Shown here: in pieces, positions 12,693-16,813 of the stretch
Layout of the letters: each line of letters begins with the position of its first letter
Numbering within the stretch: the first letter of the stretch is position 1
IMG/VR virus record: IMGVR_UViG_3300033273_000513
Location: 1-64,000 of that record
DNA: 64,000 nucleotides
Direction: 5' to 3' (one strand)
Source of the DNA: a virus
Position numbers and translations under genes: made by a program
The notes under the pieces: model-generated
What the model was told of the DNA's origin: nothing
Seen by the model: only the letters and a program-made list of their open reading frames with translations
The model's database searches: none

Positions 12693-13577
12693 GTGTCCTT
12701 TCCCACTCGCGGTCAGATATATCAAGAACCACTTGATAGAATCAGGTCTACGTTAGGTCGTGTTTCTTTAGACACTTTCTATCAGGTTGTGTTTTCTTTT
12801 GGTAAGGATAGCAATTGGTTCAGAAGACGATCTGGTATTTCTGGATCTTCTCTGAATGCTGGTTTAGATTATAAACAGAAGATGAGTCTTCTGTGTGCTG
12901 AAGCTGAATTACCAGGCACTGGATTCAGTGCAACCTCTGCTATTGGACACTTTCAAGGTATTCAAGAACAGTTTGCAACAATTAAGGATTATCCACCTCT
13001 CAACTTAGTTTTCTATGTTGATGCGGATCACGTAATGATTGAGATATTTGACCAATGGATGGAATATATCAACCCCACTATGGGAAATAGAAGAAGACTG
13101 AACGCATATAAGAGACTTAGTTATCCAGAATCCTACAAAGAAGTCATTCATATTACCAAGTTTGAAAGAGATACATTTAACTCTAAGTCATCAAGAAATC
13201 CAGCTAGGTTATTGACATATGAGTTTGTCAATGTATGGCCGACTAACATGACATCTATGAAGGTGAACTATGGTGGTTCAAATGTGTTAAAATTATCTGT
13301 GCAACTTGCATATGATAGATTCTTCACATCATATACAACTGAAAACGTGCATTCCTTTCCTAATGATACTGGATCTAATGCAACTGCAAAAGATTTGGTT
13401 AATCGACATGCAGGATTTGACAGAACCTTTGGAAATACAGCAGGTCCTGGTACAGATTTTGTAGAACGAGACACTGCAACTGGTGCTAGAATGGATGCGG
13501 GGGGCGATGGACCACTTAGATATGCAAATGGTAAACTTGTCTATGATGCACAAGGAAACATTCAAGATATGTTCTAA
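12693..13577 (+). CDS. gp54: Baseplate tail tube initiator gp54
   Basis: 294 aa, GTG start, close to T4 gp54 (320 aa). The L-T-Y-E-F-V-N-V-W-P-T segment, then a beta strand ending L-S-V-Q-L-A-Y-D-R-F (about 165-212), is typical of gp19-like tube fold proteins. It polymerises on the baseplate hub so that the tube can start. Divergent from gp4. Confidence 0.85.
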   Translation: MSFPTRGQIYQEPLDRIRSTLGRVSLDTFYQVVFSFGKDSNWFRRRSGISGSSLNAGLDYKQKMSLLCAEAELPGTGFSATSAIGHFQGIQEQFATIKDYPPLNLVFYVDADHVMIEIFDQWMEYINPTMGNRRRLNAYKRLSYPESYKEVIHITKFERDTFNSKSSRNPARLLTYEFVNVWPTNMTSMKVNYGGSNVLKLSVQLAYDRFFTSYTTENVHSFPNDTGSNATAKDLVNRHAGFDRTFGNTAGPGTDFVERDTATGARMDAGGDGPLRYANGKLVYDAQGNIQDMF

Positions 13578-13599: not shown

Positions 13600-14325
13600 A
13601 TGCCACTGCCGACTATTGCAACTCCCACGTATGAGTTGATTTTGCCATCCACTGGAAAAAAGATCAAGTATCGTCCTTTCTTAGTAAAAGAAGAAAAGAT
13701 TCTGATTCTTGCTCTTGAATCTCAAGATCAATCTGAGATTACCAATGCGGTCAAGGATGTTCTGAAGAAGTGCATCATGACTCGTGGTATCAAAGTTGAT
13801 AGTTTACCTACATTTGACATTGAATATATCTTCTTGAATATTCGTGCCAAGTCAATTGGTGAATCTATCAAGGTGGTCGTTAAGTGTCCTGATGATGGTG
13901 TCACTGAGGTTCCTGTCACCATTTATGTTGATGAGATTAAAGTATCAAGACCTGAAGGACATACAACGGATATTGTCCTTGACAAGACAATGACTTTGAG
14001 AATGAAATATCCATCTTTAAGTCAATTCATTGAAAGTAATTTCGATGTGTCCATGACACCTGAAGAGACTGTTGAGAAGACTTTTAAGGTGATTGCAGAT
14101 TGCATGGATACAGTCTTCACCGCAGAGGATGCATGGGAAGCTAAAGACTATACTGCAAAGGAAAGACTTGCATTCATCGAACAACTGAACTCAAAACAAT
14201 ATAAGGATGTTGAAAGATTCTTCTCAACGATGCCGAAACTTTCTCACTCCGTTGAGGTAGAAAATCCCAACACTGGTGTTAAGAATACTGTTGTACTTGA
14301 GGGTTTAGCTGATTTTTTCGCTTAA
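13600..14325 (+). CDS. gp26: Baseplate hub assembly protein gp26 (T4_baseplate family)
   Basis: 241 aa. The opening Y-E-L-I-L-P-S-T-G-K-K-I-K-Y-R-P-F with V-K-E-E-K-I-L-I-L-A, then F-D-I-E-Y-I-F-L-N-I-R-A-K-S-I-G-E, is the T4 gp26 family pattern. It ends D-F-F-A-stop on a slippery T TTT TTC; a -1 shift there would extend it by 65 residues into the gp51 frame (305 aa in all). The order gp26, gp51, tape measure is that of T4 and of tail-assembly chaperones. Confidence 0.85.
   Translation: MPLPTIATPTYELILPSTGKKIKYRPFLVKEEKILILALESQDQSEITNAVKDVLKKCIMTRGIKVDSLPTFDIEYIFLNIRAKSIGESIKVVVKCPDDGVTEVPVTIYVDEIKVSRPEGHTTDIVLDKTMTLRMKYPSLSQFIESNFDVSMTPEETVEKTFKVIADCMDTVFTAEDAWEAKDYTAKERLAFIEQLNSKQYKDVERFFSTMPKLSHSVEVENPNTGVKNTVVLEGLADFFA
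14313..14319 (+). other. Candidate -1 ribosomal frameshift site T TTT TTC
   Basis: In the gp26 frame the codons are GAT TTT TTC GCT TAA, a canonical X XXY YYZ heptamer two codons before the stop. After a -1 slip the frame reads R-L-S-I-A-R-E-D-L-E-S-Y-Y-K and stays open through gp51 to 14516. No strong downstream stem was seen by eye. Confidence 0.65.
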
Positions 14326-14375
14326 GTATTGCACGAGAGGACTTGGAATCTTACTATAAGATTAACTTTTCTCTC

Positions 14376-14516
14376 ATGCAATACCATAAATACTCTTTGA
14401 CAGAGATTGAAAATATGATCCCCTGGGAAAGGGAAATCTATCTTGCATTACTCAAGGATCATATCGAAACCGAAAATCTTAAACGACAACAAAGAGAAGG
14501 AAAAATGAATGGCTAA
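14376..14516 (+). CDS. gp51: gp51-like C-terminal piece of the gp26/gp51 pair
   Basis: 46 aa from ATG 14376, but the frame is open and protein-like back to 14319, and no Shine-Dalgarno precedes this ATG, so it is more likely made as the -1 extension of gp26. The sequence H-K-Y-S-L-T-E-I-E-N-M-I-P-W-E-R-E looks like the helix of tail chaperone extensions (short helix, then W-R-E/W-E-R). It overlaps the next gene by 8 bases. Confidence 0.6.
   Translation: MQYHKYSLTEIENMIPWEREIYLALLKDHIETENLKRQQREGKMNG
14385..14392 (+). promoter_or_regulatory. Late-type motif CATAAATA inside gp51
   Basis: Seven of eight matches to the T4 late consensus, 117 bases before the tape-measure start. It could be an internal late promoter or chance. 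Confidence 0.3.
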
Positions 14517-16098
14517 GATAACTGTTGCTAAATTATTTGAAACAGTTGCTGAGGTTGATAAAAGATCTCAGGTTGCTTTGATGCAGTCTGAAGATAGCAT
14601 TCAAATTTCTGAGAAGACAAGAACAGATTTAGAAAGACTTATTGCGACACTGAGAACAGACTTTACTGATATTGAACAAACGCAAGAGATTATAAGAGCT
14701 GATAAGGAAGAAGACAATACTATCAAAAATTCATTCTTTGAACTTCAGAAGAGTTTTGATGGTTTGGTAGGAACCGTTGACATTCTCCGCACAGACCTTG
14801 ACAACCTGTATCAAGCGTTCTATACTTCACAGATCGTGAGACAAGAACAGCTGGAGAAAGAAGAGGATGCAGTCTTTAAAGAACAGGACGATCTTCAGAA
14901 AAAACGAGGTGGAAAAAAAGAAGGGAGAGGTGTTCTGTCTAACATGATCAAGGGTAAGAAAGACCCAAATCAAATTCAACAGGATAGGAAAAAACAGGTG
15001 AAATCTTTGACTAAAAGTATTTTGAGAACCCTTGGACTCGGTGCCTTAGCTGGTGCTGCCATGGGACTTGGCCCTGCTTTCGCTACTGATAGTGCTGGAA
15101 ACGTCGCTACTGATAGGGATGAATCTTCATCAACACTTACACCATCAAGAGAAGAATTGATCAGACAAACAGAACGTAGAAGTGGTATGTCATCATTCCG
15201 TGAGGATACTGCAGAAAATGCTGCTTTACAAGAATCTGTTCGAGCTCAATTCTCAGTTCCAACAGTGGTTGCAGATGATACGTCATTCCAACAAGGAGTA
15301 ACTGATTTAGCGAAAAAGTATGGTCTTTCAGAAGATGCTTTATATGCGGTGATGGATTTTGAGACAGGAGGAACTTTTGATCCGGCTCAGAAAAACGCGG
15401 CAGGATCTGGTGCAACTGGTCTTATTCAGTTCATGCCATCAACAGCAAAGGAATTGGGAACAACCACTGAAGATCTGGCAAAAATGACCAGAACAGAACA
15501 ACTTGTGTACGTTGACAGATATCTTGCAAGTAAAAACATTCAAGGTGCGGGTGTAGAAGATCTTTATATGTCAGTTTTATTTCCTGCTGCTGTAGGAAAA
15601 CCTAATGATTTTGTTTTGTTTGGAAAAGGTGCGAGTACTTTTGGTAATACAGATTATTCCAAACCAATATATTATGATCAAAATAGTGGATTGGATCTTA
15701 ATAAAGATGGAAGTATCACTAAAGCAGAAGCTGCATCTAAAGTCGTAGAAAGAATGACTAAACCACAGAGTCAAGAGAAAACAAATACATCTTTACAAAG
15801 TCAAGAGAAAACAAATACATCTTTTAACTTTTTTTCTGATCGTGATAAAGATAAATTATACACTCCATCGAATTTTCTTAGAGCATCATATACCTCATCT
15901 GAAGAGGGTAAAGATATTGCATCCTTACAATCAAACAGATCTCCTAGTGTATCCGTTGTGAATTTGACACAAGGAATGGATGGCGGAACTCAAGTTCAAC
16001 AATCAAGAGGAGCTGCAAGATCAAGTTTCACTGCATTATCGAATACCACGAATTCGGCTCCTGTATCATTGATGATTCGAAATACTTTTCTAACATAA
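14509..16098 (+). CDS. Tape-measure-like protein with lytic transglycosylase domain
   Basis: 529 aa. Residues 1-130 look like coiled coil with heptads; a charged linker leads to a hydrophobic segment at about 168-192 (T-L-G-L-G-A-L-A-G-A-A). A soluble lytic transglycosylase-like domain follows (about 262-345: Y-A-V-M-D-F-E-T-G-G with the candidate catalytic Glu, then G-A-T-G-L-I-Q-F-M-P-S-T-A). Coiled coil, membrane segment and murein-cutting domain fit a tape measure or hub protein that enters the cell wall on injection. The place after gp51 corresponds to T4 27-28-29. A 30-bp tandem repeat lies at 15769-15826. Confidence 0.75.
   Translation: MAKITVAKLFETVAEVDKRSQVALMQSEDSIQISEKTRTDLERLIATLRTDFTDIEQTQEIIRADKEEDNTIKNSFFELQKSFDGLVGTVDILRTDLDNLYQAFYTSQIVRQEQLEKEEDAVFKEQDDLQKKRGGKKEGRGVLSNMIKGKKDPNQIQQDRKKQVKSLTKSILRTLGLGALAGAAMGLGPAFATDSAGNVATDRDESSSTLTPSREELIRQTERRSGMSSFREDTAENAALQESVRAQFSVPTVVADDTSFQQGVTDLAKKYGLSEDALYAVMDFETGGTFDPAQKNAAGSGATGLIQFMPSTAKELGTTTEDLAKMTRTEQLVYVDRYLASKNIQGAGVEDLYMSVLFPAAVGKPNDFVLFGKGASTFGNTDYSKPIYYDQNSGLDLNKDGSITKAEAASKVVERMTKPQSQEKTNTSLQSQEKTNTSFNFFSDRDKDKLYTPSNFLRASYTSSEEGKDIASLQSNRSPSVSVVNLTQGMDGGTQVQQSRGAARSSFTALSNTTNSAPVSLMIRNTFLT
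15769..15826 (+). repeat. 30-bp tandem repeat, two copies
   Basis: The word AGTCAAGAGAAAACAAATAC starts at 15769 and again at 15799, encoding S-Q-E-K-T-N-T-S-x twice in the linker of the tape-measure-like protein. An in-frame duplication that lengthens the linker by 10 residues. Confidence 0.85.
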
Positions 16099-16099
16099 T

Positions 16100-16813
16100 A
16101 TGTCAGTCATTACTAAGAACAGTCTGCCAGTAAGTCAGATTACATCAAGTATTAGTGATTCTCTCACTAGAGTAAAGATGAGTAATTCATCCAATAAATC
16201 TCTATTGAGATCCACACTTGCATTATCTCAGAGACTCGATGAAAAGGAATCTGTTCTTGGTAATGAGAGAAGAAAGATAAGTGCAGAGAAACTTGCTGCA
16301 CAAGAACAAGAACAAGTTATGGTTGATGGTGGATATCAACAGGGTCTTAATGATGGATTTGTATCAGGTTTTACTGTAGGAATCAAGAAAGGCGTGGAAG
16401 TTGGCCAAAACAACATCTTTGATCAAATATTGAAAATACCTGGAGTGAAAACTATTTTAGATTCACTCAAACCTAAAAAGATGAATGTGGGTGGTGTTGT
16501 TCCTGGTTATGGAGATCAGGATACTGTTCCTACAATGTTGACTCCTGGTGAATTTGTTGTTAGAAAAGAAGTTGTAGAAAAAGTTGGAGTCGATAATCTG
16601 AAAGCAGTCAACGACATGGATGACAAGATTACTCCGATGGATATCAGTGAAGACACAGATTCTGGCACGAGTGAAATTCTTGTCATAAACAGAACTAATG
16701 TAGTAACACAATCTGTGGTAAATAATAGTGGCGGTGAAGTTGTCCCTGTTCCTATTCCTATCCCTGTGGGTGGACAGAATGACTTTATCTCTTACGTTAA
16801 GAGTATCAGTTAA
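16100..16813 (+). CDS. Second tape-measure-associated protein
   Basis: 237 aa, starting two bases after the previous stop. The N-terminal half is helical, and the middle carries the motif G-G-V-V-P-G-Y-G-D-Q-D-T-V-P-T-M-L followed by T-P-G-E-F-V-V-R-K, which is the hallmark found near the ends of many phage tape-measure proteins. It looks like the C-terminal part of a tape measure made as a separate chain. Confidence 0.75.
   Translation: MSVITKNSLPVSQITSSISDSLTRVKMSNSSNKSLLRSTLALSQRLDEKESVLGNERRKISAEKLAAQEQEQVMVDGGYQQGLNDGFVSGFTVGIKKGVEVGQNNIFDQILKIPGVKTILDSLKPKKMNVGGVVPGYGDQDTVPTMLTPGEFVVRKEVVEKVGVDNLKAVNDMDDKITPMDISEDTDSGTSEILVINRTNVVTQSVVNNSGGEVVPVPIPIPVGGQNDFISYVKSIS

Follow-up and report, generated by a model that had tools for sequence, protein, structure and literature searches.

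Comparative evidence for gp26/gp51 of T4-like cyanophages as a probable single tail assembly chaperone gene with a programmed -1 frameshift

In phage lambda, one gene of the tail module yields the short product gpG and, by a rare -1 fusion, the longer gpGT (PMC5009743), and reviews up to 2016 treated T4 as an exception to this G-T frameshifting (PMC5009743). T4 gp26 and gp51 are listed as hub assembly chaperones, gp51 being needed for assembly and absent from the particle (PMC3004832). In a 2010 comparison, cyanophage gp51 was described as having approximately 20% of its normal length, with the first ~200 residues missing, while gp51 as such was reported to be "missing only in Aeh1" (PMC3037559). 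The tail assembly chaperones (TACs) of T4-like phages were identified by Vladimirov, Gautam & Davidson in 2022 (Virology 566:9-15, as cited in PMC10885494 and PMC12846349), and the statement of the initial annotation that such an arrangement is unreported for T4-like cyanophages is therefore withdrawn. In summarizing that study, the PRFect paper states that frameshifting is replaced in some T4-like phages by a short gene and a separate long, fused gene (PMC10885494), and the paper on Pseudomonas phage Adele refers to Vladimirov et al. when it mentions polyT as slippery sites of the chaperone genes of T4-like phages (PMC12846349). The central idea was thus published in 2022, and the gain of the current analysis consists of its confirmation at scale and of the RNA elements associated with the slip site. 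The abstract of the 2022 study is said to name T4 genes 26 and 51, and it reportedly describes frameshifting as apparently kept in several groups of T4-like phages.

The sequence analyzed here, referred to as the window, covers bases 1-64,000 of an IMG/VR record of 87,835 bases, the source of which is, as judged from its relatives, a T4-like cyanophage. The features relevant to this work (positions refer to the window) are the following.

12693..13577, + strand: tail tube gene (PF23849, 1.6e-15), a usual TAC neighbour, upstream of gp26
13600..14325, + strand: gp26 ORF, short product (TAC-N) of 241 aa; PF12322 T4_baseplate 2.6e-72, phrog_150 2.3e-76
14299..14303, + strand: SD-like GAGGG, candidate 5' stimulator, 9 nt upstream of the heptamer
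14313..14319, + strand: slippery heptamer T_TTT_TTC in X_XXY_YYZ phase
14317..14516, + strand: -1 frame extension (TAC-C, "gp51"), 65 codons after the slip; phrog_634
14323..14325, + strand: TAA stop of gp26, within the heptamer-hairpin spacer
14326..14384, + strand: predicted 3' stimulatory hairpin, starting 6 nt after the heptamer
14509..16098, + strand: 529-aa tail protein with SLT domain (4.1e-6), candidate tape-measure/tail-lysozyme; phrog_196, phrog_2013
16100..16813, + strand: 237-aa protein with a short segment common to tape measure proteins; phrog_3547 (4.7e-5) and others

The gp26 gene, which constitutes the sole PF12322 copy in the whole 87,835-base record, directly follows the tail tube gene, and in relatives gp54 or gp19-like genes are found upstream. 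Its 3' end reads GAT TTT TTC GCT TAA, in which the heptamer has the phase that would permit tandem slippage of two Phe tRNAs, and the coordinates of the initial annotation proved to be correct. The -1 frame comprises 65 sense codons following the slip (14319-14513) and a stop codon at 14514-14516; its sequence is protein-like, as had been proposed, and the encoded product matches PHROG 634 "baseplate hub assembly catalyst" (3.9e-27). The start of the 529-aa SLT gene overlaps the end of gp51 by 8 nt. Downstream of gp51 the evidence for a tape measure gene is confined to this SLT domain and to weak tape-measure segments, from which no clean assignment results; in the annotation of phiM12 the tape measure similarity is located two genes further on.

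Based on these features, and on the comparative data presented below, gp26/gp51 very probably represents a single tail assembly chaperone gene from which two products are generated through a programmed -1 frameshift. Most ribosomes would terminate at 14323-14325 to produce the short gp26 (TAC-N), while a fraction would pause at T_TTT_TTC, where the P- and A-site tRNA-Phe would slip one base back onto TTT TTT. The slipped ribosomes would then continue to 14513, giving rise to a predicted fusion product (TAC-NC) of about 305 aa. The rate of this event would most likely be set by the SD-like element approximately 9 nt upstream together with the hairpin 6 nt downstream, similar to the situation in dnaX of E. 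coli. If lambda gpG/gpGT is taken as a model, the common N domain may form a coat on the tape measure protein, with tube subunits being recruited through the C domain.

The locus resembles the lambda system in that a single tail-module gene would give rise to a short product and a rare -1 fusion (PMC5009743). It differs in its slippery sequence and in the lack of detectable protein kinship; furthermore, the function is proven in lambda, whereas for the window phage a chaperone role is suggested by homology and gene position, and frameshifting and its rate are what we infer from the sequences. In E. coli dnaX an SD-like sequence lies 10 nt upstream of the slip site and an 11-pair stem downstream (PMC5009743), a layout matched in the window by an SD-like element at ~10 nt, the heptamer and a stem-loop shortly downstream. 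The slippery sequences are distinct (A_AAA_AAG in dnaX, T_TTT_TTC here), and the shift generates the short product in dnaX but would generate the long one here. In Pseudomonas phage Adele and the Vandenendeviridae, a -1 extension of TAC-N is open in every genome and a polyT is present near the 3' end (PMC12846349); this polyT is GTTTTT rather than the full TTTTTTC, and the passage of that paper concerned with it makes no connection to gp26/gp51 (PMC12846349).

The initial annotation had proposed an alignment of T4-like cyanophages as a check. Two scans of viral contigs yielded 124 non-redundant loci, which were reduced by clustering at 90% identity to 106 IMG/VR relatives with gp26 identities spanning 54-99%. 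TTTTTTC was located exactly at position -10 relative to the gp26 stop in 123 of the 124 non-redundant loci and in 105 of the 106 clustered relatives, with the -1 frame being open for about 60 codons. The sole relative without the heptamer is locus L133, in which the gp26 reading extends for just 606 nt and the end of the protein is missing. Codon usage was then evaluated column by column in an alignment of 105 gp26 genes, all of which use TTC for the last Phe (TTC frequency at other conserved Phe columns being 0-44%) and TTT for the Phe preceding it. The codon before this Phe-Phe pair specifies Ser, Asp, Ala or Asn and has T at its third position in 105/105, the next best value being 0.78 among 63 comparably variable columns of the same 105 genes. 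Since the codons that make up the heptamer are fixed according to these codon-column controls, conservation of Phe-Phe at the protein level does not provide an explanation.

The main alternative, which we consider quite improbable, holds that gp51 is a separate small protein, produced from an independent start or by termination-reinitiation just past the gp26 stop. Public annotations do assign gp51 its own start, and in one of the two clades of relatives (clade B) the third codon read after the -1 slip is ATG or GTG in 59 of 69 sequences, with Met kept at this position in 97%, so that reinitiation would be possible there; in addition, TAATG/TGATG overlaps are found in some distant relatives. 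In clade A, to which the window belongs, no ATG or GTG occurs in the -1 frame earlier than codon 19 in 34 of 36 sequences. The residues preceding the first start (SIAREDLE) are nevertheless conserved as protein, being nearly invariant overall and invariant for S, I, A, R, E, L and E. In the part of the -1 frame that separates the gp26 stop from the first ATG of clade A, change per codon position amounted to 0.105, 0.07 and 0.251, third positions thus being the highest. Such conserved, protein-type change between the gp26 stop and 14376 argues for translation of the region, which independent initiation at 14376 would not explain. Direct reading of the sequence upstream of ATG 14376 revealed no Shine-Dalgarno sequence, in agreement with the earlier claim that gp51 is without one of its own. 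Reinitiation would also leave unaccounted for the fixed TTT TTC, the fixed preceding T and the hairpin, one arm of which contains, and would bury, the clade B start ATG. By these comparisons the -1 frame is open and evidently under protein selection, and the earlier proposal that gp26 and gp51 are frameshift-linked, with no usable separate start for gp51, is supported by the comparative tests.

The frameshift reading is accompanied by putative RNA elements on both sides of the heptamer. Upstream, a GAGG, GGAGG or GAAGG sequence is present ~9-10 nt 5' of the heptamer in 105/105 relatives, the GGAGG form occurring in 34 of 36 clade A and 43 of 69 clade B sequences and the rest having GAGG or GAAGG. 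The Glu codon at this site is GAG in 89% of relatives, as compared to 14-36% at all conserved Glu columns but one, the exception being an equally biased Glu/Leu column pair near the start of gp26 (105 relatives). This codon statistic supports a role of the SD-like sequence as a stimulator but, because of that other equally biased column, is by itself no proof. Synonymous positions are strongly conserved at gp26 codons ~12-13 (window ~13633-13638), where GAG is found in 90% and a Leu codon ending in G in 86% of the 105 relatives.

Downstream, the predicted hairpin of the window is formed by pairing of 14326-14333 with 14377-14384 and of 14335-14339 with 14371-14375, and an apical stem completes it; the closing arms are GUAUUGCA/UGCAAUAC plus GAGAG/CUCUC (fold z of -5.1 for 14320-14420). 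No covariation was seen in the hairpin of the 36 clade A sequences, since its arms are nearly invariant. In clade B the stem is GUAUGGCUCA/UGAGUCAUAC and exhibits paired changes, for example GGCACA/UGUGUC. In this clade, 88.1% of cells are paired, a percentage inflated by the fact that the structure was taken from single-sequence folds of the same set, for which slide and shuffle controls were used, and 19 cells are double-changed versus 5.2 after shuffling. RNAalifold recovered 4 of 11 pairs from the 69-sequence clade B alignment. Comparison of folding energies to those of shuffled sequences keeping the -1 protein gave mean z values of -4.1 (36 sequences) and -3.5 (69 sequences). The cultured phages S-PM2, P-HM1 and Bellamy have a stem near the same position whose sequences are unrelated, while the stem is weak in Syn33, weak or absent in L188 and Asswx_1, and often absent in more distant phages. 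Greater weight was placed on the double changes, on the z values from synonymous shuffling and on the unrelated arms in S-PM2 and P-HM1. On balance, it appears somewhat likely that chaperone stoichiometry in marine T4-like cyanophages is under the control of a three-part dnaX-type cassette (SD-like sequence, T_TTT_TTC and covarying hairpin), with the hairpin of the window clade having been rewired so as to retain the position of its 5' arm and to place its 3' arm ~30 nt further. If true, RNA structure would tune tail-tube assembly in ocean myoviruses belonging to a very abundant group.

A second alternative, in which the fusion is translated from mRNA edited by RNA polymerase slippage on the T run, is judged highly improbable. 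The run consists of six T, and polymerase slippage represents a known alternative route, for example in Thermus dnaX (PMC5009743). The exact X_XXY_YYZ phase with its trailing C, and the SD-like sequence and hairpin at dnaX-like spacing, point to ribosomes instead. Six T are, moreover, short for efficient transcriptional slippage. Finally, the reading of the open frame and heptamer as chance or a degraded gene has a negligible probability and is refuted by the comparative data, since, even though genes that end with an in-phase heptamer are no rarity in the AT-rich window, the heptamer is kept across 105 clustered relatives and in distant phage groups. Judged within the window alone, where some in-phase heptamer occurs at 3 of the 33 ORF ends with a -1 frame open for at least 50 codons, the combination is mildly unusual; it is the relatives that settle the matter and place the pattern, as assessed from aligned sequences, far beyond chance.

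Beyond the cyanophages, TTTTTTC at -10 is also present in the distant single-copy phages Cronobacter S13, Stenotrophomonas Yut2, Aeromonas Asswx_1 and Vibrio CZ01, and TTTTTTC was furthermore detected in Desulfovibrio 7757 and in L188-L204, likewise distant and with a single copy. Variants of this sequence are TTTTTTG in Rhizobium RHph_I46 and TTTTTTT in phiM12. The Ackermannviridae (L164, L167, L170-L187) and Vibrio D533 (L165) possess a single PF12322 gene and an open -1 C-domain frame in conjunction with no perfect heptamer. They keep GA(A/G) ATT TTC AT(T/C) TAA or CTT TTC AAG TAA, in some cases with a TAATG overlap, and these heptamer-less single-copy phages count against the frameshift reading.

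In two of the distant phages, gp26 is followed by an unannotated gap whose -1 frame codes for the C domain (4703-4870 in L168, i.e. Asswx_1, and 4709-4875 in L162, i.e. Cronobacter S13). Such gaps may account for the gp51 reported missing in Aeh1. The unannotated -1 extension of Asswx_1, a member of the Emmerichvirinae, is equivalent in kind to that of the cyanophages.

Both T4 gp26 (8.8e-64) and T4 gp51 (3.9e-52) match PF12322 across the full profile, and the C-terminal part of T4 gp51 matches phrog_634 at 1.2e-23, the same family as is matched by the cyanophage -1 frame. The predicted long form thus corresponds to the short form plus a C-terminal domain, in agreement with the PF12322 plus phrog_634 composition of T4 gp51. 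Judged by these matches, T4 gp51 is equivalent to the cyanophage fusion, with the C domain joined in frame, and T4 gp26 is equivalent to the short form. The initial annotation had regarded T4 gp26 and gp51 as split relatives of the chaperone pair; the kinship is borne out, while the notion of a split gene is abandoned because both proteins are full-length PF12322 members and hence paralogues. In T4 the same two forms would be supplied by a pair of paralogues, gene 26 (N) and gene 51 (N plus C), which, unlike the window locus, are divergently oriented and without heptamer. At the end of T4 gene 26 (L001), for which no shift is needed, Phe-Phe is kept as TTC TTT, with no heptamer; this TTC TTT may be a relic of a slip site.

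Two PF12322 copies were found in six T-even-type genomes (T4, RB43, Aeromonas 31, Krischvirus, KARL-1 and phiP4-3) and one copy in eleven other genomes. In the tree, the frameshift type is separate from the gp51 proteins, which group together (100/100), and from the gp26 proteins, which do so as well (68/86); this topology fits, short of proof, a single duplication in the T-even lineage. As far as the citing papers describe them, the T4-like TACs of Vladimirov et al. likewise comprise short and long forms, with frameshifting in some groups and two genes in the T4 group. The locus would offer a clean test of how duplication of a gene, as seen in the T4 group, can take the place of a frameshift. 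It also offers an answer to the fragment-like appearance of cyanophage gp51, the missing part of which would be gp26, joined by the slip, and in hundreds of database records that list two genes, one gene with two products would be the better reading. With regard to structure, searches of PDB sequences with gp26 and T4 gp51 found no relative, and the top PDB match of an AlphaFold2 model of gp26 (pLDDT 84) was the HK97 TAC 2ob9, a weak match (E 0.24, TMt 0.38-0.43).

Two minor observations are added. In L133 the -1 frame is still open around ~1850-1900, the possible origins of this locus being a deletion, a chimera or a true loss. Elsewhere in the window, an in-phase A_AAA_AAT, which may be there by chance, is located 7 nt before the stop of the minus-strand ORF 12228-11734, and the next gene (447 aa), which overlaps this ORF, is open in the -1 frame.
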